Shown here in pieces: positions 2,705 to 15,458 of a stretch of DNA of 20,469 bases; within the stretch, counting starts at the first letter, position 1; each line of letters begins with the position of its first letter. The stretch is from a virus. Location of the stretch: IMG/VR virus record IMGVR_UViG_3300030616_000091, positions 1 to 20,469 of that record, one strand, 5' to 3'. The notes under the pieces were generated by a model. That model did no database searches and was not told the DNA's origin. It saw nothing but the letters and a program-made list of their open reading frames with translations. The translations under genes and the position numbers were made by a program.

Positions 2705-4099
2705 ATGACAGTAGATCCTTTAAAGTTCTTGGAGTATACGACTGATTGCAAAGTCTTCATGGAAGATGTGTTAGGACTCACAGTAAAAGACTTTCATGAA
2801 GAGTGGCTCGACCTATTCGATAAGAATAGATTTGTATGCTTACTAGCCCCAAGAGGACATGGTAAAAGTACCATTGTTGAGGGGTATATCATATGGCGTA
2901 TCTTAACTGATCCGTCTATTAGAATATTAATTACTACAGTAAATCAAAATAAAGCTGAAGAAATGATGACATTCATAAGTCATCATCTTGAGTATAATGA
3001 AAAGATCATAGATCTATTTGGTGAACAAAAATCAAATCTATGGTCAAGATCAAAATTAAGAGTTAAAAACAAAGGTGGAGGTGTAATCCACAAAGAACCT
3101 ACATTACAGGTTCTTGGAGTAACATCATCCCAAATATCATCTCACTATGATATAATTATCTTAGATGATGTTTGTGATAGAAAAAATACAGCAACAGCAC
3201 ATAGAAGAAGACAATTAAAAGAATGGTATGAAACAGAATTATTAGAGATGCTAGAACCAGAAGGTCAAATAATAAACATAGCAACAAGATGGCATGCCGA
3301 TGACATACACAACTACTTATCAGAGAAGGAAACCTATGTATCAAGAAGATATAAATCTATACCTGATAAAGAAAAAGAAATATCTTTATGGCCTGAAAGA
3401 TTCAGCTATGATGACTTGGTAAGATTAAGAGATGAACATATAGGTAAAGTTGCATTTGAAATGCAATATCAGAATAATATAATTCAAACAGAAGACTCAC
3501 CTATTAAGAAGGAATGGGTTGATAATGCAATGGCAAGATGGGATGAATCTAAATTTCCTACTGATACAGAAAGATTCATTGGTGTAGATCTTGCATCAAA
3601 GAGTATTGAAGGAGATTACTTTGTTGCTACAGTAGTAGCAAAAACACAAAATAATAGTTATTTCGTTGTTGAAAGTATTAGAGACAAAGTCTCTATGAGT
3701 ACTCAACTTGAAATAATAAAATCATTAAGTGATAAATGGGCTCCTAGGATGATAGGAATAGAATCTAATGCAGCCCAGAGAATAATAACAGATGAGTGGA
3801 AAGATACAACTACTCTACCTATCAAACAATTAAAATCCTCTTGGGTTAATGACAAATGGTCAAGACTACAAAAATTAAGTGTATTGCTTGAAACTAATAG
3901 GATAACTATTAATCCTATGTTAGATTTCTTAGCAGATGAGCTAATAAGCTATCCTAGAGGAATGCATGATGATGCAATAGATAGCCTGGCATTTGCTATA
4001 CAATCATCTGAGGATGATTTGGATCCAGTTAACTGGAATCAAGTATCTCAAATATTTACAGCAAGGAAAAGAAAGCTACCCTTTGTTGTAAAAGCATAA
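2705..4099 (+). CDS. terL: Terminase large subunit (packaging ATPase-nuclease)
   Basis: The motor that pumps DNA into the prohead and cuts the concatemer. The 464-aa product has a Walker A motif RGHGKST (50-56) and Walker B IIILDD (150-155). A coupling motif lies in NIATRWHADD (191-200). An RNase H-like nuclease domain shows D295 in GVDLA, E353 in GIESN, and D422/D423 in HDDAIDSLAF. All expected catalytic residues are present and the length is normal for the family. The ATG has no clear ribosome binding site and lies 24 nt after the ATGTTATAATGT motif, so a short-leader transcript is likely. Gene order (terS upstream, portal downstream with alba between) supports the call. Confidence 0.95.
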   Translation: MTVDPLKFLEYTTDCKVFMEDVLGLTVKDFHEEWLDLFDKNRFVCLLAPRGHGKSTIVEGYIIWRILTDPSIRILITTVNQNKAEEMMTFISHHLEYNEKIIDLFGEQKSNLWSRSKLRVKNKGGGVIHKEPTLQVLGVTSSQISSHYDIIILDDVCDRKNTATAHRRRQLKEWYETELLEMLEPEGQIINIATRWHADDIHNYLSEKETYVSRRYKSIPDKEKEISLWPERFSYDDLVRLRDEHIGKVAFEMQYQNNIIQTEDSPIKKEWVDNAMARWDESKFPTDTERFIGVDLASKSIEGDYFVATVVAKTQNNSYFVVESIRDKVSMSTQLEIIKSLSDKWAPRMIGIESNAAQRIITDEWKDTTTLPIKQLKSSWVNDKWSRLQKLSVLLETNRITINPMLDFLADELISYPRGMHDDAIDSLAFAIQSSEDDLDPVNWNQVSQIFTARKRKLPFVVKA

Positions 4100-4438: not shown

Positions 4439-5779
4439 ATGTCTATACTTGATAGATTTAGAAACATAGGTTTCTTTAAGAATAAAATAGATTACCTTGA
4501 TGACCAAGGTAAGCCTAAAACTATTATACAAACTGGAAAGAAAAAACAGTTTGGTCAAAATAAGGGTCTTAGAACAAAAGCCCAACTTGTTAAATATTGG
4601 AACTACTACTCTGGTGAAGATACTGTGTGGGCTGCTGTAAATTCTATAGCATTCAATACTGTAATGGTTGGATATGATATAGAATCAGACAATCCAAGAG
4701 CAAAAGAATTAATACAAATGTGGTGTAAGAGAGTAGATTTAGATACTCATATGCTAGATAACACAAGATATGCTCTTGCAATGGGTGATGCATTCATAGA
4801 AATAGTTTATAATAAAAAGAAAGAACCATCATCTTTATTAGATGTTGACCCAAAAACAATGGAAATAGAATATGATGAACACGGAATAGTTCAATCATAT
4901 AGACAAAGTTTAGGTGTAAGAGATAAAGAAGGGATTCCTAAACTAGATAAACATAGTATATGTCATATAAAGTTCTTCTCTAATCCATCAAATCCATATG
5001 GAATGTCTTTAATTGAGGCATCTATGGACGTAATAGAAAAGAAAGTAAGAACTGATAATGCAATTGCAAATGCAATTATAAGGCACGGTACAAGTAAAAC
5101 AGTCTTTACAGTAGGAAATGAACACGATAGACAATTACCACCAGAATCAGTATTAAAGGACATAAGAGATGAGGTAGAGGATATAGATGAAAAGAATGAA
5201 TTCATCGTACCTTGGAATGTAACAGTTAGTACAATAGATGAAAAAGGTATTACAGGTGTTGAAGAATATTATAATTACTTCCAATCACAACTGGTATTGG
5301 GATTACTCTGTACTGAAGAAGCTTTAGGATTAGGTAGAGGAAGTACAGAAGCAACTAGTAAGACCAAAGCGTTACTATACGAAAGAATGATACAATCATT
5401 CCAATTAAGACTTGCCCATATAATAGAAAAACAACTATTTAATCAAGTATTAGTTGAGAATGGATTTGACCCAGATATAGTTACAATAGAGTTTAGAAGT
5501 GTAACTTCAACTGATGAATCAGAAAGAGCAAAATGGATGGGTAATCTAATAAGAGGTTTCAGATCATCTAAAGTAAAACCATTCACAATTAATGAAATAA
5601 GAAAGAAATTTAAGATGAAAGAAATAGATTTGCCAGAGGCAAACTCTATTATATATGAAGGTTATGGTTCTGGAGAATCTGAACCAGAAGAAGAGCCACA
5701 GAGTGATGAACCTGTTACAGAGGAACCAGAAGAAAGTGAAGAGAATGAAGAAGAGGAAAAAATAGATGAGGAAGAGTAA
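4439..5779 (+). CDS. Portal protein
   Basis: The dodecameric ring at the special capsid vertex through which DNA enters. The 446-aa product shows features of the HK97/SPP1-type portal family: YALAMGDAFIEIVYN (about 107-121), the ICHIKFFSNPSNPYGMS segment (about 174-190) followed by a long helix, and the region LCTEEALGLGRGS with downstream QSFQLRLAHIIEKQLFNQ. The last ~35 residues are almost entirely Glu/Pro/Asp, an acidic tail. The gene lies 13 nt after alba and overlaps the start of the protease gene by 14 nt, the classical terminase-portal-protease order. Confidence 0.9.
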   Translation: MSILDRFRNIGFFKNKIDYLDDQGKPKTIIQTGKKKQFGQNKGLRTKAQLVKYWNYYSGEDTVWAAVNSIAFNTVMVGYDIESDNPRAKELIQMWCKRVDLDTHMLDNTRYALAMGDAFIEIVYNKKKEPSSLLDVDPKTMEIEYDEHGIVQSYRQSLGVRDKEGIPKLDKHSICHIKFFSNPSNPYGMSLIEASMDVIEKKVRTDNAIANAIIRHGTSKTVFTVGNEHDRQLPPESVLKDIRDEVEDIDEKNEFIVPWNVTVSTIDEKGITGVEEYYNYFQSQLVLGLLCTEEALGLGRGSTEATSKTKALLYERMIQSFQLRLAHIIEKQLFNQVLVENGFDPDIVTIEFRSVTSTDESERAKWMGNLIRGFRSSKVKPFTINEIRKKFKMKEIDLPEANSIIYEGYGSGESEPEEEPQSDEPVTEEPEESEENEEEEKIDEEE

Positions 5780-6296
5780 AAAGACTTTTCATGCTCCATA
5801 CGTAAAGTTTGAGTATGATAAAAGACAAGTAGGAAAAGCAACTGATGTTAGGATATATAGAGATGTTACTTTACTTACAGAGGGTAAATTTACAGACTCT
5901 TTATCAATGACAGGGGTTTCTTATCCTAGAGATGTATTAGAAAGGACTGTTAATAATTGGCAATCTAATTACTTAAACATAGACCATTCACATAATGTAC
6001 TTGACAGGATAGGTACAGTAGAGAACGCATATTGGAATGGAGACAAAGTCAAAGGCGACTTATATATACACCCAATAACTAGAAATGCTATGGATACGAT
6101 AAAACTAATTGATGATGGATTAATAAATTGGTTATCAGTTGAGATTATGACGGAAGATGCATGGGACAGAAATGATGAGAGATATGTTAAGGATTTAGAA
6201 TATATAGGATTAGCTGTAGTAACTGCTCCAGCTTGCCAAGGTGCATTAATATCTGACGAAGGTCCAAAACCACCAGAGTTTTTATATGAAGAATAA
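5766..6296 (+). CDS. Prohead maturation protease 1 (HK97/S78-like)
   Basis: Cleaves scaffold or capsid N-terminal domains during head maturation. The 176-aa product has the family's His motif (NIDHSHNVLDRIG, H74/H76) and Ser motif (INWLSVEI, S124) 50 residues apart, then a strand ending AVVTAPACQGA. The start overlaps the portal gene. It is short and lacks a scaffold domain. A second, longer protease-like gene is present at 9290, so this window carries two. The N-terminus preceding the protease domain (RKSKKTFHAPYVKFEYD) is not recognised. Assignment of S124 as nucleophile follows the family pattern and was not tested. Confidence 0.75.
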   Translation: MRKSKKTFHAPYVKFEYDKRQVGKATDVRIYRDVTLLTEGKFTDSLSMTGVSYPRDVLERTVNNWQSNYLNIDHSHNVLDRIGTVENAYWNGDKVKGDLYIHPITRNAMDTIKLIDDGLINWLSVEIMTEDAWDRNDERYVKDLEYIGLAVVTAPACQGALISDEGPKPPEFLYEE

Positions 6297-6450
6297 GGCA
6301 ACTTGTGAATACCAAAACATTTGTAGTAACTACCCACTAAAATGTCATAAATGCGTATTTAACAGAAATTTAAAGTTAAAAAATTATTTAAAGATAAAGA
6401 AAGGAAATAAGGAGATTCGTTATTTAGGGGATTCTGATGAAGGGGTGTAA
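6286..6450 (+). CDS. Small zinc-finger-like protein, 54 aa
   Basis: A short frame that overlaps the 3' end of the protease gene by 11 nt and the 5' end of the next gene by 14 nt, filling what otherwise looks like a 140-nt gap. The product starts MKNKATCEYQNICSNYPLKC and has C7, C13, C20 and C23, a pattern (C-x5-C-x6-C-x2-C) that suits one zinc ion. A very basic segment (about 27-41) and an acidic end follow. The tight overlaps on both sides and conserved-looking Cys spacing argue for a real gene. Function unknown; protein or nucleic-acid binding is plausible. Confidence 0.65.
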   Translation: MKNKATCEYQNICSNYPLKCHKCVFNRNLKLKNYLKIKKGNKEIRYLGDSDEGV

Positions 6451-6784
6451 GTCGGTTCAAGTACCAGGTTGTCCACTTTGTGATATGTTCATTAAATTGA
6501 ACATAAAAACAAAGTTATATTATCCAGAGAAAGATAAGATACAAGATCAAGATGATTTCGTGATTGTGGAATGTCAAACTTGTCACGTTCCTATGGTAGT
6601 GGTATCAGATCATACTACTGAAATTGGAAGGGAACAATGGGGAAGGATTCTCTATAGATGTAGGGAATTGTTTGGTAATGGAATAAAATTAAGAACCCAT
6701 AGAAGATATATAAAAGACCATTGGCATGCTCACATAACAAGCATAACCAAAGATATTAAAAAATTAGAAGATTTAAATAAGTAA
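6437..6784 (+). CDS. HIT-like small protein with zinc-binding CxxC pairs
   Basis: The 115-aa product has CPLC (12-15) and CQTC (46-49), enough for one zinc site. It ends with DHWHAHI, an H-x-H-x-H triad at 95-99 like the HIT nucleotide-hydrolase signature. The middle (FVIVECQTCHVPMVVVSDH) also resembles the central strands of HIT proteins. If it is HIT-like, the activity would be hydrolysis or transfer of nucleotide phosphates, but the triad's last hydrophobic pair is only partly visible. It overlaps the preceding small zinc gene and ends just before the late motif at 6785. Alternative: a structural zinc protein whose His triad binds metal. Confidence 0.6.
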   Translation: MKGCKSVQVPGCPLCDMFIKLNIKTKLYYPEKDKIQDQDDFVIVECQTCHVPMVVVSDHTTEIGREQWGRILYRCRELFGNGIKLRTHRRYIKDHWHAHITSITKDIKKLEDLNK

Positions 6785-6796
6785 ATGTTATAATGT
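6785..6796 (+). promoter_or_regulatory. Late-gene motif copy 2 (exact ATGTTATAATGT)
   Basis: It begins directly after the TAA stop of the upstream gene and ends 25 nt before the capsid protein 1 ATG. No Shine-Dalgarno site lies in those 25 nt, which fits initiation close to the start codon. Confidence 0.55.
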
Positions 6797-6821
6797 CGAT
6801 ATATATAATAATAAAATAAAT

Positions 6822-7766
6822 ATGTCAAGATTAGCAAAAATACTCGAATATACCTATGCAGGTAATTTGGAAAGGAAAAAACTAATAAATAGACCATCAT
6901 TTCCATATGATATCAAAGAACTTCTTATGAGTGAAGGAATGGAAGCAGATACAATATTAACCGAGGAATTACAAGGAGCACTAATAGATGGAGCAGAAAA
7001 GAGATCAGTAATAAGAAAAATATTGCCAATAATAAAAGTTAGTAAATATAAAGCAATTGTTCCTACCAATATATCACCTAGTGGAGTAGTAGGTCCAACA
7101 GCAGAAGGAGCAGTTCCAGCAAGTCTTGAAGGTTCATACTCATCAGGCTCATTATCTATTAATAAATATTCTACTAAAATAGGAATAACTAATGAAATGA
7201 TAGAGGATTGCCAATGGGACGTTATTGAATATCAAGTTAAAAGAGCAGGTGCTCTATTAGAAAACACATTAAATAAAGATGGCATGACAGAACTCTTAGA
7301 TGGACATAATGGTACATCTCCAGCTGATAAAGATCCAGCTAGTTCTCACTTTGAATTAGCAGACCTTGCAGATATAAAGAATACCCTTATGGATAAATAT
7401 TGGGGTGGTGGAGGATTATCATTTATAGGACATCCAGAGGCAATACAATTCTTACTAGATAGTGATGCATTGGCAGTAAACGTAGTTCCGAACCAAGGCG
7501 GACAATTACTTGGTGTTGATATTTATGAATTAAATACTCCTATAGGAAGTGCTACAAATTATTGGGATGCTACAGATGCTGCAAACCATTATTATGGAAT
7601 CGTTCTAGATACAGATAATTACGCTGTAATTGGTATGAGAGATGATATACATATAACAAAAGAAGTGAAGGATCCAATACATGACCTAACACAATTAATA
7701 GCTAGTATGAGATTTGATGTTAAGGTCATAAATAGTAAAGCAGCTGTTAGGATTTTAAGTAAGTGA
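6822..7766 (+). CDS. Major capsid protein paralog 1 (HK97 fold)
   Basis: The shell-forming protein of the head. The 314-aa product carries a typical HK97 N-arm (MSRLAKILEYTYAGN), an E-loop/P-domain region ending GITNEMIEDCQWDVIEYQVKR, and the usual C-terminal end KDPIHDLTQLIASMRFDVKV. It is clearly paralogous to the protein at 11341: the N-terminal 21 residues, the ITNEMIED motif, and the DPIHDL-x5-MR end are shared. It lacks an ~11-residue N-terminal insertion present in that paralog and has a GGGGL loop of its own. Both may build one shell, or one may be a minor or alternative capsid protein. Start chosen at the ATG matching the paralog. Confidence 0.85.
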   Translation: MSRLAKILEYTYAGNLERKKLINRPSFPYDIKELLMSEGMEADTILTEELQGALIDGAEKRSVIRKILPIIKVSKYKAIVPTNISPSGVVGPTAEGAVPASLEGSYSSGSLSINKYSTKIGITNEMIEDCQWDVIEYQVKRAGALLENTLNKDGMTELLDGHNGTSPADKDPASSHFELADLADIKNTLMDKYWGGGGLSFIGHPEAIQFLLDSDALAVNVVPNQGGQLLGVDIYELNTPIGSATNYWDATDAANHYYGIVLDTDNYAVIGMRDDIHITKEVKDPIHDLTQLIASMRFDVKVINSKAAVRILSK

Positions 7767-7791
7767 TGATTTAATAAATAGAGAGATAATA

Positions 7792-8637
7792 ATGGTAGAA
7801 ATAACAGGCTATGATAGAGAAGACGAATCTAGTATGAGAGGAGTTGAAACGTGTGACTTTGATGATTATTACGGTTTACTAACTATAGATGTACCATACT
7901 CAGCACATATGAGATGGCATCGGAACAGAAAGATGGTTGAAGGACAAAATTACCTTATAGGTAGTACTATTGAAGATATTAGTAATTTCAACCAAAATAA
8001 CAATTACGCAGAACCTTTAACTGCCATAGGTGGATTTAAGATATCGTCAACAAGTTCACTTGATACTGACCCAAGTGGTTCTGGTATTAATGCAGTTAGG
8101 ATAAGTTACCTAGACGCAAACTGGAATGAGGCAACTTGTGATGTTGCTCTTAGTGGTACAAAACAAGTAACTGTTCCTAATAGTATGCTTAGAGTAAATA
8201 AACTTGAAGCTGTTAGGGTAAGTACTAGTGCATGCAGAGCAGTTGGAAATATAACTCTTGCTAGTGGAGGTACTCCTTATTTAAGAATATCCGCTGGTGA
8301 AACAAAGTCATATGGTGGATACTATTACGTACCTACTGGACAAGTATTTATAATAACTGATTGGAATTGTTATCCATTGAAAGGTAGCACAGCTGACTTC
8401 TCATTTGAATTAGTCAAGGAAACCAAAAAAACATATAATGGTAAAACATACACATCAGAAAGAAGTAGACACATTGGAGATACTGTAGCAACTTATACTG
8501 TGTTTAACATACCTCCAATTAGTATGCCACATATGGTAGAGGGATGTTGTAGAGTCAGAATTAGAGGACAATCTCAAGCTGGTGGTGGATCAGGTGGTGC
8601 TTGGTTAAGAGGATATTTAGTTGATAGACATGTGTGA
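7792..8637 (+). CDS. Beta-rich virion protein (head fibre or decoration candidate)
   Basis: The 281-aa product is Gly/Ser/Thr/Tyr-rich and predicted almost all beta. Residues about 99-165 (INAVRISYLDANWNEATCDV, then a TVPNSMLRVNKLEAVRV strand pair and VGNITLASGG) match a pattern common in phage structural proteins: a beta sandwich handling a change of value against a reference. The end has a Gly-rich loop (AGGGSGGAW). No enzyme motif is seen. It lies 25 nt after capsid protein 1 and is probably translated from the same message. Likely on the capsid surface; the exact role is inferred. Confidence 0.6.
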   Translation: MVEITGYDREDESSMRGVETCDFDDYYGLLTIDVPYSAHMRWHRNRKMVEGQNYLIGSTIEDISNFNQNNNYAEPLTAIGGFKISSTSSLDTDPSGSGINAVRISYLDANWNEATCDVALSGTKQVTVPNSMLRVNKLEAVRVSTSACRAVGNITLASGGTPYLRISAGETKSYGGYYYVPTGQVFIITDWNCYPLKGSTADFSFELVKETKKTYNGKTYTSERSRHIGDTVATYTVFNIPPISMPHMVEGCCRVRIRGQSQAGGGSGGAWLRGYLVDRHV

Positions 8638-9070
8638 TTGGATGGTCAATAATAACTTAAAGAAACTCGAAGAGATAACGGAAAGACTCAGTAGTAGTAT
8701 AGATGATCCATCCCATCCAAGTTCAATTTATTCATCAATGTGTACATTTCTTGATACACTAAAAACGAGTATATGTATTGTTAGAAATGACAAGATAGTA
8801 CTCTTTATGAATAAATATCTTCAAAAGAGACTTCATAAATGTACTGGATATTCTCCAAATGATTTTCAATTTAAAAAGTGTATAGGATGTAGTGATGTAG
8901 GATGTCCAATAAAAGATAAATGTGAAGGAATTTGGAACGATAGTAAAGTTAGAGTATTTAATAATGTTGCAGCTCCAGTGACTAAGAAGAATTTTAATGT
9001 TGTTGTAATACCATTAAAATATAATTGTACTAAAGCTATAATAGAGATATGGGACTTAGATGACGACTAA
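8630..9070 (+). CDS. PAS-like protein with Cys-rich insert
   Basis: The 146-aa product (ATG at 8630, overlapping the previous stop by 8 nt; a TTG at 8621 would add three residues) begins with a helix (NLKKLEEITERL), then a PAS-type core: strand SICIVRNDKIVLFMN (47-61), a loop with KCIGCSDVGCPIKDKCEG (83-100; C84, C87, C92, C98), and paired strands KVRVFNNVAAPV and NVVVIPLKYN, ending IIEIWDL. PAS domains with this C-x2-C-x4-CP insertion in archaeal and bacterial sensors are thought to bind metal or respond to redox. No kinase or output domain is attached. It is unusual in the middle of capsid genes. A structural role of a PAS fold is the alternative. Confidence 0.6.
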   Translation: MCDWMVNNNLKKLEEITERLSSSIDDPSHPSSIYSSMCTFLDTLKTSICIVRNDKIVLFMNKYLQKRLHKCTGYSPNDFQFKKCIGCSDVGCPIKDKCEGIWNDSKVRVFNNVAAPVTKKNFNVVVIPLKYNCTKAIIEIWDLDDD

Positions 9071-9290
9071 TGACAATGGCTGGAAAGAGTGGAGCAAGTA
9101 TGTCCTAGCTGAACTAAAGTCTCTTAACAACAAATATGAGAATATCAACAAGATATTAACAAACCATCTTATGCATACACAAGAGAGACTAACTGTGTTA
9201 GAAACAAGCTTAAGGAATTGGAAATACTTTGTTGGACTTATGGTAACCATATTAGGATTAATAATTGCAATATCAGGATTGATTAGATAA
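9060..9290 (+). CDS. XhlA-like membrane protein (coiled coil plus C-terminal TM)
   Basis: The 76-aa product has an amphipathic coiled-coil (about residues 8-52) and one strong hydrophobic segment (56-75) ending LIR. This is the layout of XhlA/hemolysin-type accessory lysis proteins and of some tail or baseplate anchors. It overlaps the upstream gene by 11 nt and its stop shares one base with the next start (TAATG), so translation is probably coupled. A membrane role in lysis with the two-TM proteins at 2135 and 2444 is possible but unproven. Confidence 0.6.
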
Positions 9291-10801
9291 TGCCGCAACC
9301 ACCTAAAAAAGATGAAAGTAAATCTGACTTTATGAAAAGATGTATCCCTACATATATAAATGAGGGATATCCTAAAGATCAGTCAACAGCTATGTGTTAC
9401 AGTATGTGGAGAAAAAAACATCCAGAGGACAAGAAAAAGGCCAGAGGTGATGGCCAAGGTCAAGATGGAGATAGACAAGGAGATGGAGGAGCAGATATCT
9501 GTGTGTGTCCAGAATGTGGATATGAGACAGAACATGATAAAGGAACTCCTTGTAATGAAATGACTTGTCCTGAGTGTGGGTCTAATCTTGTTGGAAAAGA
9601 TAAAGAGGAAAGTATGTCATTAAAGAATATTGACTTTAGTAATTTAACAGTTACACTAGATGAAGCTGTAAAGGCTTTATATATAATGGCTAATCCAAAA
9701 ACATTAGAAATAGAATCACCAAAAAGACACATTCATATAGATTTACTAGGTAACATAAAGATCATAGATAAATCTGATAGTAGAAAAATAATAGCTGGTT
9801 ATGCATCATTAGCTGTAATAGATACAGAAAATGAATATATACCAGTAAAAGTTCTACAAGAAGGACTCAACACACTAATGAAAGATGAATCCTATTCAAA
9901 TATAATGATTGTTCATAAGAACATACAAATAGGTAAGATACTAAAAGAATACGAAGAATTAAAAACCCATGTAGATGACAAAGGACTATTTATAGTTGCT
10001 GAGATAAGAGATGACTTAGAGATAGCAAAAGCTACATGGATAAAGATTGAAGAAGGTGAGATACGAGGATTCTCAATAGGTGGTGAGATTATAGAAGACC
10101 ATGAAGAATGTGGAGACGATGGATGTATAAAGGTAATAGATAAAATTAATCTATTTGAGATTTCAGTCTGCTCTAATCCTGTCAATAAGGATTCAGGCTT
10201 TGAAATAATTAATAAATGTGATGTGGATATGTTAGATAATAATATTGATAAGATGAAAAAATCCAAAAAGGATGAACCAGAAGTCGAGGAGAAATCAAAA
10301 GATGAAGACTGTAAAGACTGCGACCCAAAAGAGCTAGAAGAGCCACAAGAAGAAATTGAAGAAGAGGTAAAGACCAACGAAGAGCCAGAATTACCAAAAG
10401 AAGAATTACTAAGTAAATCTGATATTATAGAAACAATCAGAGAAACAATTACAGAAACCCTTAAAGCAATACACGAAAAAGAATTACAAGAGAAAGAGGA
10501 CGATGATGAAGATGATGACGATGAAGAACCAGTAGAGGTTGAACCAGTTGAAGAAGAAAAAGTCGAAGAGAAATCAGAGAAGGTAGAAGAGACAGATGAA
10601 GAATTAGAAATGGCAGTTAAAGCCAGAGACGAAGCAATAGAAGGTTTCAGAGACGAGATTAAAAAACTCAAAGAACAAGTTAAAAAATTAGAAGAAACCG
10701 AAGAAGTGCCAAAGACATCTGTTGAAGAGAAAGAACCTTCATATGAAAAAGATTCTGGTATTATCATAGATAAACGTCATGGTCGCATATATAAACAGTA
10801 A
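9290..10801 (+). CDS. Protease 2 fused to zinc ribbon and acidic scaffold-like tail
   Basis: A 503-aa multi-part head protein. Residues 13-46 form a small Cys-containing segment ([13 protein letters not shown]...[11 protein letters not shown]) seen at the start of some phage protease-scaffold proteins. Residues 71-100 are a zinc ribbon (CPEC at 73 and 93, with extra C71 and C88). Residues about 165-310 resemble an S78-type prohead protease: [17 protein letters not shown]209 in MIVHKN, S262 in RGFSIGGEI (53 residues apart), then [12 protein letters not shown]. From about 315 to 480 the chain is Glu/Lys/Asp-rich with a coiled-coil ([20 protein letters not shown]), a scaffold-like tail. The gene precedes decoration and capsid 2 genes. 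Self-cleavage to release scaffold is expected from the family. Confidence 0.75.
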
Positions 10802-10823
10802 TTTATCTAATGTGATGTTTTTA

Positions 10824-10837
10824 TTTATTTAAATAAA
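10824..10837. promoter_or_regulatory. 14-bp palindrome in the decoration-gene leader
   Basis: TTTATTTAAATAAA is a perfect palindrome between the protease 2 stop and the decoration protein, following a TAATGTGATGTTTTTA stretch that loosely resembles the late motif. The next gene has its own Shine-Dalgarno site (GGAGTGAT). It could be part of a promoter or a weak stem; being all A/T it carries modest evidence. Confidence 0.3.
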
Positions 10838-10862
10838 GTCTTAAATAATTGGAGTGATAAAT

Positions 10863-11273
10863 ATGGCAATGACATTTACGGCAATAGCTCAAGACCCAGT
10901 TCTTGTAGAAGAAGGAACATTTGCTATGAACTATCTTTGTTCTGGAATTATATATGCTGGGTGTGCAGTGTGTTGTACAGGTGCCACTGAAGCAGTTAGA
11001 GCACAACTTGGTTCACCAGGATGCCCATTACCAACTCATAGAAATGGGTTTGTTGGAGTAGCTGCCTACGATGGAACTCACGGATATAAAATAGCAGTTT
11101 ATGGTCCAGGAAACAAAGTAAGAGTTCGAGCTTCTGGTGCAATCGTTAAAGGACAAGCAATAAGACCAGTTTCTAAAGGGTTCTTCAAGGTAGCAAGGCC
11201 GCCATCAGGTTCTTTTGCAGTAGCATTAGAAAATATAGCTGACGGTGGATACGGCAAAGTTCTACTAGTCTAA
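10863..11273 (+). CDS. Capsid decoration/stabilisation protein (DUF2190-like)
   Basis: The 136-aa product begins MAMTFTAIAQDPVLVEEGTF and is a Gly/Val/Ala-rich beta protein. Its later pattern FVGVAAYDG...YKIAVYGPGNKVRVRASGAIVKGQAI...SGSFAVALENIADGGYGKVLLV is characteristic of small head-decoration proteins that sit next to the major capsid gene. Four Cys (CAVCC region and CP) are odd for this family. The ATG at 10863 is chosen because GGAGTGAT (10851-10858) lies at ribosome-binding distance; the in-frame GTG at 10854 is part of that site. Followed by capsid protein 2. Confidence 0.65.
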   Translation: MAMTFTAIAQDPVLVEEGTFAMNYLCSGIIYAGCAVCCTGATEAVRAQLGSPGCPLPTHRNGFVGVAAYDGTHGYKIAVYGPGNKVRVRASGAIVKGQAIRPVSKGFFKVARPPSGSFAVALENIADGGYGKVLLV

Positions 11274-11340
11274 TTACGTTCATTATTATAATGAAAACAT
11301 GTATGTCTATCTTATGTTTATAATAAATTAAGTGATTTGT

Positions 11341-12321
11341 ATGAGTAAACTAACAAAAATGCTGGAGTATGCCTATGCTGGTAACGTAGAGAGAAAGAAA
11401 TTAGCAAACAAAGAAAGCTTTAAGAAAACAGTACTAGATACATTACCAAGAGAAAGACGTGAATTACTTCTAAATGAGGGAATGGAATCAGACACATTAC
11501 TTCAAGAAGAGGTATATAGTACCATCGTAGAAGGATCAAAACCACTACAATGCGTAAGAAACGTATTTCCAATAATCAATACTAATACATATCAAGTACG
11601 TATCACAAAAGAAAGTGGTAACTTAGGTAAAGCTGTAGATGTAGCAGAAGGAGCTGCAATACCAATTGACACAGAAACATTCAGTACAGTTGACTTAGTA
11701 ATCAAAAAAGTTGGTACAAGACCAGTAATTACCAATGAAATGATTGAAGATGGTCTCTGGGATATGGTAGAATTCGAGTTGATGAGAGCTGGCCAAAAGA
11801 TTGAACACAAACTCAACTATGATGTAATCAATGAAGCAACTGATAAAACTACATATGCTGCAATATCTAACGTAAATGCAGGAGCTGCTTTTACATTAGC
11901 TAATGTACTTGAAGCAATTAAAGACATTCTTGACTATGATTATGTTCCAACAGATATGATCATGACTCCATTTGCTGAACACAATCTTATTAGTTCAAAT
12001 AACTTACTACAGGCTCATATGGCAGGTAGCGATGCTGCTTTAAGAAACTATGACCTAGGTAAGATATTCGGATTAAATCTACATAGATTAACAGTAGACG
12101 GATGGACAACTGGAACATATAAGTGGAATTCTGGAAACGACACAGCTAACGATGTACACGCATTAGTTTGTGACCCATCATACTGTTTCATCGGTATGAG
12201 AAGGGATATTACAGTAGAACAATACGATGACCCAATCCATGACCTTATAGGTATAGCTGCAACAATGAGATATGGTGTCAAGACAGTTCAACCAGAAAAA
12301 GCTTGTATCATAGAGCATTAA
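11341..12321 (+). CDS. Major capsid protein paralog 2 (HK97 fold)
   Basis: The 326-aa product is an HK97-type capsid protein: N-arm MSKLTKMLEYAYAGNVERKK, the segment VITNEMIEDGLWDMVEFELM, an A-domain with MIMTPFAEHNLI, and C-terminal YDDPIHDLIGIAATMRYGVK. The start is the ATG at 11341, not the in-frame GTG at 11332: the ATG reproduces the paralog's N-terminus at 6822 exactly and GTGAT upstream serves as ribosome binding site. It has an ~11-residue insertion near residue 30 (VLDTLPRERRE) absent from paralog 1. It stands as its own unit with the decoration gene, ended by a strong terminator, as expected for the most abundant virion protein. Confidence 0.9.
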   Translation: MSKLTKMLEYAYAGNVERKKLANKESFKKTVLDTLPRERRELLLNEGMESDTLLQEEVYSTIVEGSKPLQCVRNVFPIINTNTYQVRITKESGNLGKAVDVAEGAAIPIDTETFSTVDLVIKKVGTRPVITNEMIEDGLWDMVEFELMRAGQKIEHKLNYDVINEATDKTTYAAISNVNAGAAFTLANVLEAIKDILDYDYVPTDMIMTPFAEHNLISSNNLLQAHMAGSDAALRNYDLGKIFGLNLHRLTVDGWTTGTYKWNSGNDTANDVHALVCDPSYCFIGMRRDITVEQYDDPIHDLIGIAATMRYGVKTVQPEKACIIEH

Positions 12322-12368: not shown

Positions 12369-12380
12369 ATGTCATAATGT
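12369..12380 (+). promoter_or_regulatory. Late-gene motif copy 3 (one mismatch)
   Basis: ATGTCATAATGT differs from the exact motif by one base. It lies directly downstream of the strong terminator and 27 nt before the next start codon. That is the best positional support for promoter function. Confidence 0.55.
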
Positions 12381-12407: not shown

Positions 12408-12668
12408 ATGCTTCATGGTAGAGGAAATCAATATAAGCTAACTAAGGAATATGAAAAATTAAGAAGAAAAGGACTATTAGATAGAACAAAATTAACCACA
12501 GCAGAAAAGAGGCTTGTTGATATAAATGCATCAGGTCAAGGTGGTGGAAGAACTGACCCAGATAAGACATATATATTTGATAATATTCCAATTCCAGGCG
12601 AGGCAAGAAATCCTCGAAAGGTAGATAGAAGAAAAGTTCCTACATATGGATTAGGTGAAAATGAATAA
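12408..12668 (+). CDS. Hypothetical protein, 86 aa
   Basis: Not recognised. The product is basic and Gly/Arg/Lys-rich with no predicted membrane segment: an N-terminal helical part (KLTKEYEKLRRKGLL), a Gly-rich linker near residues 43-48 and a Pro-rich end (FDNIPIPGEARNPRKVDRRK). A TGGGGGTAG ribosome binding site lies before the ATG. Its stop overlaps the start of the connector gene (TAATG), so it belongs to the head-tail joining operon. Small basic proteins between capsid and connector genes are common and often unannotated. Confidence 0.7.
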   Translation: MLHGRGNQYKLTKEYEKLRRKGLLDRTKLTTAEKRLVDINASGQGGGRTDPDKTYIFDNIPIPGEARNPRKVDRRKVPTYGLGENE

Positions 12669-14564: not shown

Positions 14565-15002
14565 ATGGCACTATTAACTGGAGAAGATTGTAGTATCATG
14601 ATTGGAGATTCTCATACGCAAGAAACAGTTTATGGTTTATCAGATTTCTCTTTCTCTATAGATAGAGGAACAATAGAACAGGAACTAGTAGGTGCTGCAG
14701 GTAATTACTACACCCAAGGAGCAATGAGTCTAGAAGGTAGTTTAACTAATTGTAGATTTGCAGCTTCTGGTAATTGTGAGTTCCTTAATAGTATTATTGA
14801 TGGAACTGTAGTAAAAATATCTGGACAGATAGATTCTTCTGATAGTCTTCATTTTGTTCTAATATCTTGCCAAGTAACTGGATATGATATATCTATAGGA
14901 GACGCATCAACTATTACTGAAGCTTCAATCGACTTTACACTCATGGATCCAAAAAACCTAACTTATACTGTCGGTCCACCTAATAAAATATACGAGAGCT
15001 GA
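14565..15002 (+). CDS. Major tail protein paralog 1
   Basis: Tail-tube protein candidate. The 145-aa product is beta-rich with the pattern GLSDFSFSIDRGTIEQELVGAAGN, YTQGAMSLEGSLT and ISIGDASTITEASIDFTLMDP. The next gene encodes a clear paralog with the same three blocks (DFSxxIDRGT, EQELVG/EKELVG, FTQGAL/YTQGAM, IGDASTxTExSIDFTLxDP). Position after the tail terminator and before the assembly chaperone fits a tail-tube role. Whether both subunits build one tube or one is a tip/cap protein cannot be told. Six nt separate them, so they are co-translated. Confidence 0.75.
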   Translation: MALLTGEDCSIMIGDSHTQETVYGLSDFSFSIDRGTIEQELVGAAGNYYTQGAMSLEGSLTNCRFAASGNCEFLNSIIDGTVVKISGQIDSSDSLHFVLISCQVTGYDISIGDASTITEASIDFTLMDPKNLTYTVGPPNKIYES

Positions 15003-15008
15003 TAGAAT

Positions 15009-15458
15009 ATGGCAACAACCCCAAGAACATATACTGGTGAAGATGCAACTATAAAGATAAGTGGTTTAGGACAAGCTAGCTTTGCAATAGGTGACTTTTC
15101 ATTAACTATTGACAGAGGAACCGTTGAGAAAGAACTAGTAGGTGAAGCAGGAAATAAATTTACACAAGGAGCACTATCTGTTGAAGGTTCATTCACACAA
15201 GCAGAATTTGGAGATAAAGCAGTAAATGCAATAGTTGGTTCATTGATCAATGGAACAATGGTTTCAGTATCTGGAACAAGCGGTGTAGATAGTTTACATT
15301 GGTATCTAAAATCTTGTCAAATTACAAACTTCGAGCTATCATTTGGTGATGCAAGTACTGTCACTGAAGGTTCTATAGACTTTACTCTATTGGACCCATA
15401 TAACTTAACTAAGACGTTCTATCATGGTGGCGGAAGCGGTATGAGAATATACGACTAA
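15009..15458 (+). CDS. Major tail protein paralog 2
   Basis: The 149-aa product is a paralog of the preceding gene, sharing the IDRGTxExELVGxAGN, TQGALSVEGSF, GDASTVTEGSIDFTLLDP and C-terminal Tyr-Asp/Tyr-Glu endings. The N-terminus is longer by about four residues and the C-terminus is Gly-rich (YHGGGSGMRIYD). It is slightly less Cys-rich than paralog 1 (one Cys against four). The tandem arrangement suggests duplication; long divergence (roughly half identical by eye) implies both are kept by selection. Confidence 0.75.
   Translation: MATTPRTYTGEDATIKISGLGQASFAIGDFSLTIDRGTVEKELVGEAGNKFTQGALSVEGSFTQAEFGDKAVNAIVGSLINGTMVSVSGTSGVDSLHWYLKSCQITNFELSFGDASTVTEGSIDFTLLDPYNLTKTFYHGGGSGMRIYD

Follow-up and report, generated by a model that had tools for sequence, protein, structure and literature searches.

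An optional second capsid gene and two unlike prohead proteases in a family of probably archaeal tailed viruses

Why would one virus carry two capsid genes and two prohead proteases? The question is raised by IMG/VR record IMGVR_UViG_3300030616_000091, whose whole length of 20,469 bases was analysed here (the window). It holds one long + strand gene block in the order terminase large subunit, portal, prot1 (a protease), a gene of 115 amino acids (aa), the first major capsid protein (MCP) gene MCP1, o281, two small genes, prot2 (a second protease), the cement gene o139, MCP2 and then neck and tail genes (Table 1). A check of open reading frames (ORFs) confirmed MCP1, MCP2, prot1 and prot2 as open frames at the coordinates given, the start of MCP2 being taken as the ATG at 11341, inside an ORF called from a GTG at 11332. 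A sequence-only reading of this DNA had proposed that a protease-capsid module was duplicated and that each copy specialised. We found that the duplication concerns one capsid gene, that the copy, MCP1, is optional, and that no copy relationship is detectable between the two proteases, which are kept in relatives with a single MCP.

MCP1 and MCP2 were 34% identical along their length (E 1e-52), and both passed the cut-off of Pfam PF05065 (Phage_capsid), which upholds the proposal that the genes at 6822 and 11341 are HK97-type paralogs. The common N-terminal arm (N-arm) and the ITNEMIED and DPIHDL motifs were present in both proteins as claimed. An AlphaFold2 model of MCP1 (predicted local distance difference test score, pLDDT, 88) had the capsid protein of Haloferax tailed virus 1 (HFTV1) as its best PDB match (E 6.6e-14), so the fold also stood the structure-prediction check suggested with the sequence-only reading. 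The model had 376 PDB matches at E 0.001 or less, and the 50 listed were phage or gene transfer agent capsid, encapsulin and virus-like-particle chains. A joint MCP profile matched the HFTV1 capsid structure 8qpq (E 3.6e-40) in an alignment that begins at HFTV1 residue 105, and MCP2 is predicted to have the HK97 fold from its Pfam and profile matches. Among 50,697 phage records, MCP1 matched six, all of them haloarchaeal tailed viruses; MCP2 matched 17, namely nine haloarchaeal viruses, with the best scores among them, and eight Streptococcus or Bacillus phages. Judging by these haloarchaeal relatives, the window probably comes from a tailed virus of an archaeal host. One distant capsid relative lies on a contig binned as an ANME-2 (anaerobic methanotrophic) archaeon and one contig is binned as a Planctomycetota genome, which does not settle the host. 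MCP1 recurred in contigs from eight IMG data sets and is therefore no assembly artefact.

Relatives were gathered by scanning viral contigs with MCP2, an MCP1 alignment and a prot1 alignment; a single MCP1 sequence retrieved none. For the census, distinct relatives were picked by MCP2 alone, provided that their upstream sequence ran to 9 kb or more, the window included. The results showed that prot1 and prot2 were present in 18 of 18, while MCP1 was present in 7 and absent in 11, and that both proteases were kept in 11 of 11 single-MCP relatives. Both proteases thus recur without MCP1, indicating that the gene set was not made by copying one enzyme-plus-shell unit. In the wider collection (contigs with identical last 110 prot1 residues counted once; the window copies L001 and L002 excluded, and L123 excluded from the prot1 census; L and G numbers are contig labels), the span from prot1 to prot2 was present for 35 of 49 distinct prot1 genes, with MCP1 between them in 11 of the 35 and not in 24. 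Twenty-eight of these stretches also reached MCP2, eight with MCP1 and 20 without it. The 35 contigs were selected for having both proteases and therefore do not prove that both are always present; hence the recount from MCP2-only picks. For three further prot1 genes, prot2 was found in the whole record (L099, L107 and L114), at the other end of the record in L114 and interrupted by the contig end in L107, and the remaining 11 of the 49 stretches end at most 3.6 kb after prot1.

Whole records gave the same picture of an optional MCP1. Among 30 of them, two family capsid genes were found in six, one in 21 and none in one, and two records come from a different group whose capsid genes lie side by side. 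Of 27 family records searched in full, 26 had one prot1 and 26 had prot2, and in both misses the contig stops short of where the gene is expected. A search for a diverged second MCP found no second profile match, broken or whole, in the 21 single-MCP whole records, which include the near copies G012/G013, G014/G028 and G019/G029. In 11 more records searched, L099 and L114 had prot2 without a second MCP match. The matched stretch crossed one stop in prot1 of G023 and in prot2 of G012, where long open frames are present (166 and 434 aa).

The two proteases differ in kind. Both had been called S78-like, which holds for prot2, with a Pfam PF04586 score of 51.5 bits against a cut-off of 21; prot1 falls just below that cut-off (19.8 bits, E 0.00097), though its model (pLDDT 85) matched T4 gp21 (5jbl; Foldseek E 2e-5; Z 14.9 over 144 residues) and, with lower scores, herpesvirus proteases. 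A search of the PDB with the prot1 sequence profile found no protease. prot1 thus models as a capsid maturation protease fold of the gp21 type, in which H74 and S124, unchanged across all 50 sequences compared, are the likely catalytic residues. The prot1 profile also matched the protease domain of the gp17 family (probability 96, E 2.8e-9), as profiled from four haloviruses, three Haloferuviridae and BLv36, without HGTV-1. The conserved His and Ser fall inside the aligned blocks, and in whole-record searches a weak prot1 match lay inside the gp17-type gene of four of five haloviruses. By this evidence prot1 appears to be the counterpart of the haloferuvirus gp17 protease domain, standing alone behind the portal; the gp17-type fusion of scaffold and protease next to the cement and MCP genes, a trait of Haloferuviridae, is not the arrangement of prot1.

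In prot2, H209 and S262 were invariant in 22 of 22 sequences. A long acidic, coil-like tail follows in prot2 and is lacking in prot1 (176 aa), so that the scaffold-like tail had rightly been placed on the second protease only. This tail showed a weak likeness to the gp17 tail (E 0.0012, probability 19), seen in three of five haloviruses in whole-record searches. By profile comparison, the protease domain of prot2 did not match that of the gp17 family (probability 0.8), and no relation between prot1 and prot2 was detected either pairwise or by profile (probability 0.2). The proteases do lie upstream of the capsid genes as described, though they do not adjoin them, since the 115-aa gene and the 139-aa cement-like gene intervene. 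The HFTV1 order is gp17 (scaffold-protease), gp18 (capsid stabilisation) and gp19 (MCP), and the o139 family profile matches gp18, as well as genes at the gp18 place in HRTV-4, HRTV-29 and BLv36; prot2, o139 and MCP2 therefore hold the standard positions of gp17, gp18 and gp19. Two prohead proteases of different type throughout one family look unusual, and a literature phrase search for such a case returned nothing relevant. In several relatives (L005:6298-6480, L007:2378-2518, L008:5591-5728, L016:5458-5682), a small stand-alone gene lying just downstream of the 115-aa gene matches the start of prot2 (window 9290-9430), so that this domain occurs both alone and fused to prot2.

MCP1 lies in a variable slot between the 115-aa gene, which comes after prot1 in relatives too, and prot2. 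In relatives this interval spans anything from less than 1 kb to more than 6 kb and otherwise holds frames of 902 to 1,557 aa, o281-like genes, small frames or little. Eight slot frames of over 900 aa were listed and four scanned; a DNA ligase domain scored above cut-off in three of the four, and the fourth, of 1,557 aa, had no Pfam match. One of the three, a frame of 1,261 aa (L014:2652-6437), combines beta-lactamase-like and DNA ligase domains with an intein-type LAGLIDADG insert, all above cut-off. MCP1 is accordingly one of several alternative tenants of the slot. Homologs of o281, its neighbour, were found in three relatives without MCP1 (L023, L036 and L081), and o281 was not found in the MCP1 carriers L010 and L037. 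It is therefore not an MCP1-specific partner.

Phylogeny had been suggested as a way to date the duplication. All 13 MCP1 proteins of sufficient length formed one clade (support 99/97; the L052 MCP was counted as MCP1 in the MCP trees). The tree nests MCP1 among the MCP2s, and the alternative of a single MCP2 clade was not rejected (approximately unbiased, AU, test p 0.09), so that a split before the diversification of MCP2 is not separated from one within it. A lineage A, consisting of the window, L005-L010 and L037, held together in a quick MCP2 tree (support 100, L003 and L004 falling in the same group) and less firmly in the prot1 tree (support 94/80); the MCP2 of L037 is incomplete and L006 lacks prot1. 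The same grouping was rejected for MCP1 (AU p 1.8e-5, a flattering value, as the group was named after the MCP2 tree had been viewed). Mapped on the prot1 tree, MCP1 presence needs six changes, three of them forced by well-supported branches. From these trees, MCP1 would either have crossed between lineages or descend from an old duplication that was lost many times, two histories that are indistinguishable here.

Several signs suggest that both capsid genes are in use. The ratio of nonsynonymous to synonymous divergence (dN/dS) of MCP1 was 0.11-0.53 in nine overlapping pairs, values that are rough because dS is near saturation; they are indicative of purifying selection. No stops were found in the MCP1 frames of the six two-MCP whole records, nor in those of L007, L037 and L107. 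A spaced element, ATGT-n3..12-ATGT, preceded 12 of 13 MCP1 and 32 of 36 MCP2 genes (shuffle means 0.3 and 1.5), compared with 90 of 2,015 ordinary 70-nucleotide (nt) tiles. In the window, the exact form TGTYATAATGT occurred four times on the + strand and never on the - strand (expected 0.03). All four copies, at 2671, 6786, 12370 and 16842, are noncoding and lie 34-44 nt before a start codon, those of the terminase, MCP1, an 86-aa gene and a 226-aa gene, respectively. TGTYATAATGT is perhaps a late promoter of the family. With two mismatches allowed, it was not clearly enriched (41 against a shuffle mean of 32; 10 of 100 shuffles reached 41).

Identity between the MCP1 and MCP2 of the same virus was then compared by region in nine two-MCP viruses, with domain borders of our own division. 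Mean identity was 49% in the N-arm (residues 1-38), 31% in residues 39-66, 35% in the E-loop (67-121), 40% in residues 122-178, 23% in the A-domain (179-264), which sits at capsomer centres in HK97-fold proteins, and 37% in residues 265-314. The N-arm of the window pair was 61% identical, against 43% or less in the other regions. No good evidence for gene conversion of the N-arm was obtained: own pairs were 49.0% and other pairs 46.3% identical (permutation p 0.02), and the same own-versus-other difference was seen outside the N-arm (p 0.01). Capsid residues 1-100 are absent from the HFTV1 virion, an absence that its authors interpret as processing (PMC12494034). The N-arm corresponds to this missing part, because the family aligns from HFTV1 residue 105. 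Keeping the N-arm while the capsomer-forming parts changed would be expected if one scaffold and protease set serves both proteins and MCP1 takes a distinct place.

Our preferred reading is a single capsid assembly system that uses two shell proteins. MCP2, the cement protein o139 and the scaffold-protease prot2 would be the standard set, and MCP1 an optional MCP2 paralog kept in the variable slot. Through its kept N-arm, MCP1 would be recruited by the same scaffold as MCP2, be trimmed by a protease and enter the same prohead, where its diverged parts would suit a special position, most likely the fivefold vertices. prot1, which is not joined to the scaffold, would be the old maturation protease of this capsid lineage, and prot2 would add an S78-type protease that is fused to the scaffold; both would work on the prohead whether MCP1 is present or not, rather than each serving one capsid protein. 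We infer co-assembly, the vertex position, arm trimming and this division of labour, and put the chance that MCP1 joins a common prohead at a special, most likely vertex, position at about even. By analogy with T4, MCP1 would most likely be a vertex capsomer like gp24, and it is, like gp24, an HK97-fold paralog of the hexamer protein. Both T4 paralogs are in one head, gp24 pentamers standing beside gp23 hexamers, and gp21, the fold of which is predicted for prot1, processes both; gp24 is thought to be a gene-duplication product, shares about 20% identity with gp23 and can be replaced by mutant gp23 (PMC9958956). That relatives cope with MCP2 alone would fit a replaceable vertex protein. A bolder form, which we hold only tentatively, makes MCP1 an optional, horizontally moving penton subunit, gained and lost as slot cargo, that would re-tool the vertices and docking there while leaving the rest of the shell unchanged, within a family-wide two-protease prohead of one protease freed from the scaffold and one bound to it.

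Several observations weigh against this single-system reading. Besides resting on analogy, its vertex role meets the difficulty that gp24 is essential in wild-type T4 and loses only a 10-residue propeptide in the published account (PMC9958956), whereas many relatives do without a second capsid protein. The N-arm was the best-kept region in only six of the nine viruses, with an equal or better region in L007, L008 and L022 (in L009 it tied with the E-loop). The link of the prot2 tail to the gp17 scaffold is the weak one given above, and the upstream pattern was picked after some of the same sequences had been inspected. In the closest pair of the window, MCP1 changed faster than MCP2 (dN 0.35 against 0.10), which fits weak constraint too; the corresponding values were 0.15 and 0.20 for L008-L009 and 0.15 and 0.12, barely faster, for L022-L032.

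This fast change in the lineage of the window, together with the patchy presence of MCP1, would also fit a protein that stays out of the virion, either a relic or a gene acting in the cell, for example by interfering with the capsids of other viruses. For rudiviruses, a second MCP paralog is reported that does not enter the virions (PMC10848311). The stop-free frames, purifying selection and common upstream element speak against such a role for MCP1, and we regard it as unlikely. Alternatively, MCP1 and MCP2 might share capsomers or tile irregularly, as in a two-component encapsulin, with no fixed vertex place for MCP1. Encapsulins are not viruses and have no portal or tail. In that of Streptomyces lydicus, two HK97-fold proteins co-assemble into a published shell of variable composition (PMC12407261). 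The N-arm common to MCP1 and MCP2 would suit such a mixed shell, but the A-domain, the most diverged region on average, is a better fit to separate capsomers, which leaves it improbable, if worth keeping in mind.

MCP1 could instead make, or switch assembly to, a second type of particle, such as a head of smaller size or one serving another element, and its place in a variable slot without tracking virus lineages would agree with that. Yet no second portal or terminase was seen among the window genes scanned, and MCP1 retains an arm suited to the common scaffold; we give a second particle little credence. An elongated shell, another proposal of the sequence-only reading, finds no backing as a way to package a bigger genome, given single-MCP records of 144,545 and 154,999 bases, bearing in mind that record length is not genome length. 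As for the duplicated module itself, each protease would serve the capsid protein downstream of it, in two specialised assembly lines or alternative particles. The gene order of the window, prot1 before MCP1 and prot2 before MCP2, agrees with this, and the ekchuahvirus MCPs are each described with a cognate protease (PMC9894754). It is nevertheless very improbable here: the proteases are not detectably related and persist in single-MCP relatives, MCP1 has no recognised scaffold or cement gene next to it, and prot1 is seemingly the counterpart of a haloferuvirus protease that serves an MCP2-like capsid.

The general arrangement is already known. A 2023 study of viruses of ANME-1 archaea describes two ekchuahviruses that both encode a pair of divergent HK97-fold MCPs along with cognate proteases, and calls dual MCPs unique among the known Caudoviricetes of haloarchaea and ANME-1 (PMC9894754). 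By that description, these Ekchuahviridae (Methanophagales viruses GBV301 and GBV302; order Nakonvirales) are head-tailed viruses of archaea and, like the window, have two HK97-fold MCPs and two proteases for capsid maturation (PMC9894754); the window is of the same kind, seen here at family depth. A 2026 preprint assigns two Thermococcales viruses to Ekchuahviridae (PMC12934983). The differences, judged from the published description only, are that ekchuahvirus MCP-2 is read as acquired from haloferuviruses, each MCP having its cognate protease (PMC9894754), whereas the two window MCPs fall in one family and single-MCP relatives have the second protease as well. A second protease thus does not imply a second capsid protein, unlike the pairing in the published case, and if ekchuahviruses prove to be family members, their cognate-protease pairing needs re-examination. 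Haloferuviridae, exemplified by HFTV1, share with the window the best PDB match of the MCP1 model, the order of scaffold-protease, cement and MCP, and a protease domain matching prot1; unlike the window, they showed a single MCP in each of the roughly 18-kb stretches covered, and the one protease annotated there forms a single protein with the scaffold. Literature searches, whose coverage left out most subscription journals, found no paper on this virus family. New here are the close capsid paralogy, a second protease independent of the second capsid gene, the likely identity of prot1 with the haloferuvirus protease domain, and the uneven spread of MCP1. The family offers a natural experiment on gaining a second shell protein: relatives with and without MCP1 share scaffold, cement and proteases, and the role of the extra subunit is therefore testable by comparison.

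Table 1. Features of the window discussed in the text, with the evidence for each
Feature	Position	Strand	Evidence
Terminase large subunit	2705..4099	+	phrog_38, E 3.9e-78
Portal protein	4439..5779	+	phrog_9232, E 4.9e-25
prot1, stand-alone capsid maturation protease domain (predicted), 176 aa; probable counterpart of HFTV1 gp17 protease domain	5766..6296	+	Pfam, model, profile
Conserved 115-aa gene (CxxC pairs), separating prot1 from the variable slot	6437..6784	+	
Upstream element TGTTATAATGT before MCP1	6786..6796	+	exact TGTYATAATGT
MCP1, optional HK97-fold capsid paralog	6822..7766	+	Pfam Phage_capsid, E 1.5e-9; model; clade of 13
o281, accessory gene in the variable slot	7792..8637	+	phrog_8198 (unknown function), E 5.5e-8
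149-aa conserved small gene, working label PAS149	8621..9070	+	no Pfam match
76-aa gene, C-terminal hydrophobic stretch	9060..9290	+	sequence; relatives
prot2, S78 protease domain and acidic scaffold-like tail	9290..10801	+	Pfam S78, E 1.7e-13, residues 162-307
o139, capsid stabilisation (cement) protein, counterpart of HFTV1 gp18	10854..11273	+	phrog_673, E 3.5e-7
MCP2, HK97-fold major capsid protein of the whole family	11341..12321	+	Pfam Phage_capsid, E 4.6e-11; phrog_10 major head protein, E 5.3e-22
Upstream element TGTCATAATGT (TGTYATAATGT form) before the 86-aa gene at 12408	12370..12380	+	

The conserved 115-aa gene had no family match in Pfam or PHROGs (best E above 0.2). Tandem o139 cement genes were seen in some single-MCP relatives, with four copies in L016, L018, L019 and L034 and two in L012, L020, L033 and L118; the eight MCP1 carriers spanned through MCP2 had one copy, too few for a trend. 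In the tail region of the window, the adjacent genes at 14565-15002 and 15009-15458 are paralogs with 50% identity. A tail-tube identity guessed from their position was not borne out: the gene at 14565 had no PHROGs match and a profile did not match the HFTV1 tail tube protein. Such pairs are kept in relatives, with four copies in L028 and L032. A different virus group also has two capsid genes close together (L059, L060, L061, L063, L065 and L066, and also L067 and L068), and no prot1 or prot2 match was found in its stretches. Its paired capsid genes were 34-44% identical in the five pairs compared, and three of the four capsid genes of L065 and L066 scored above the Pfam Phage_capsid_4 cut-off.

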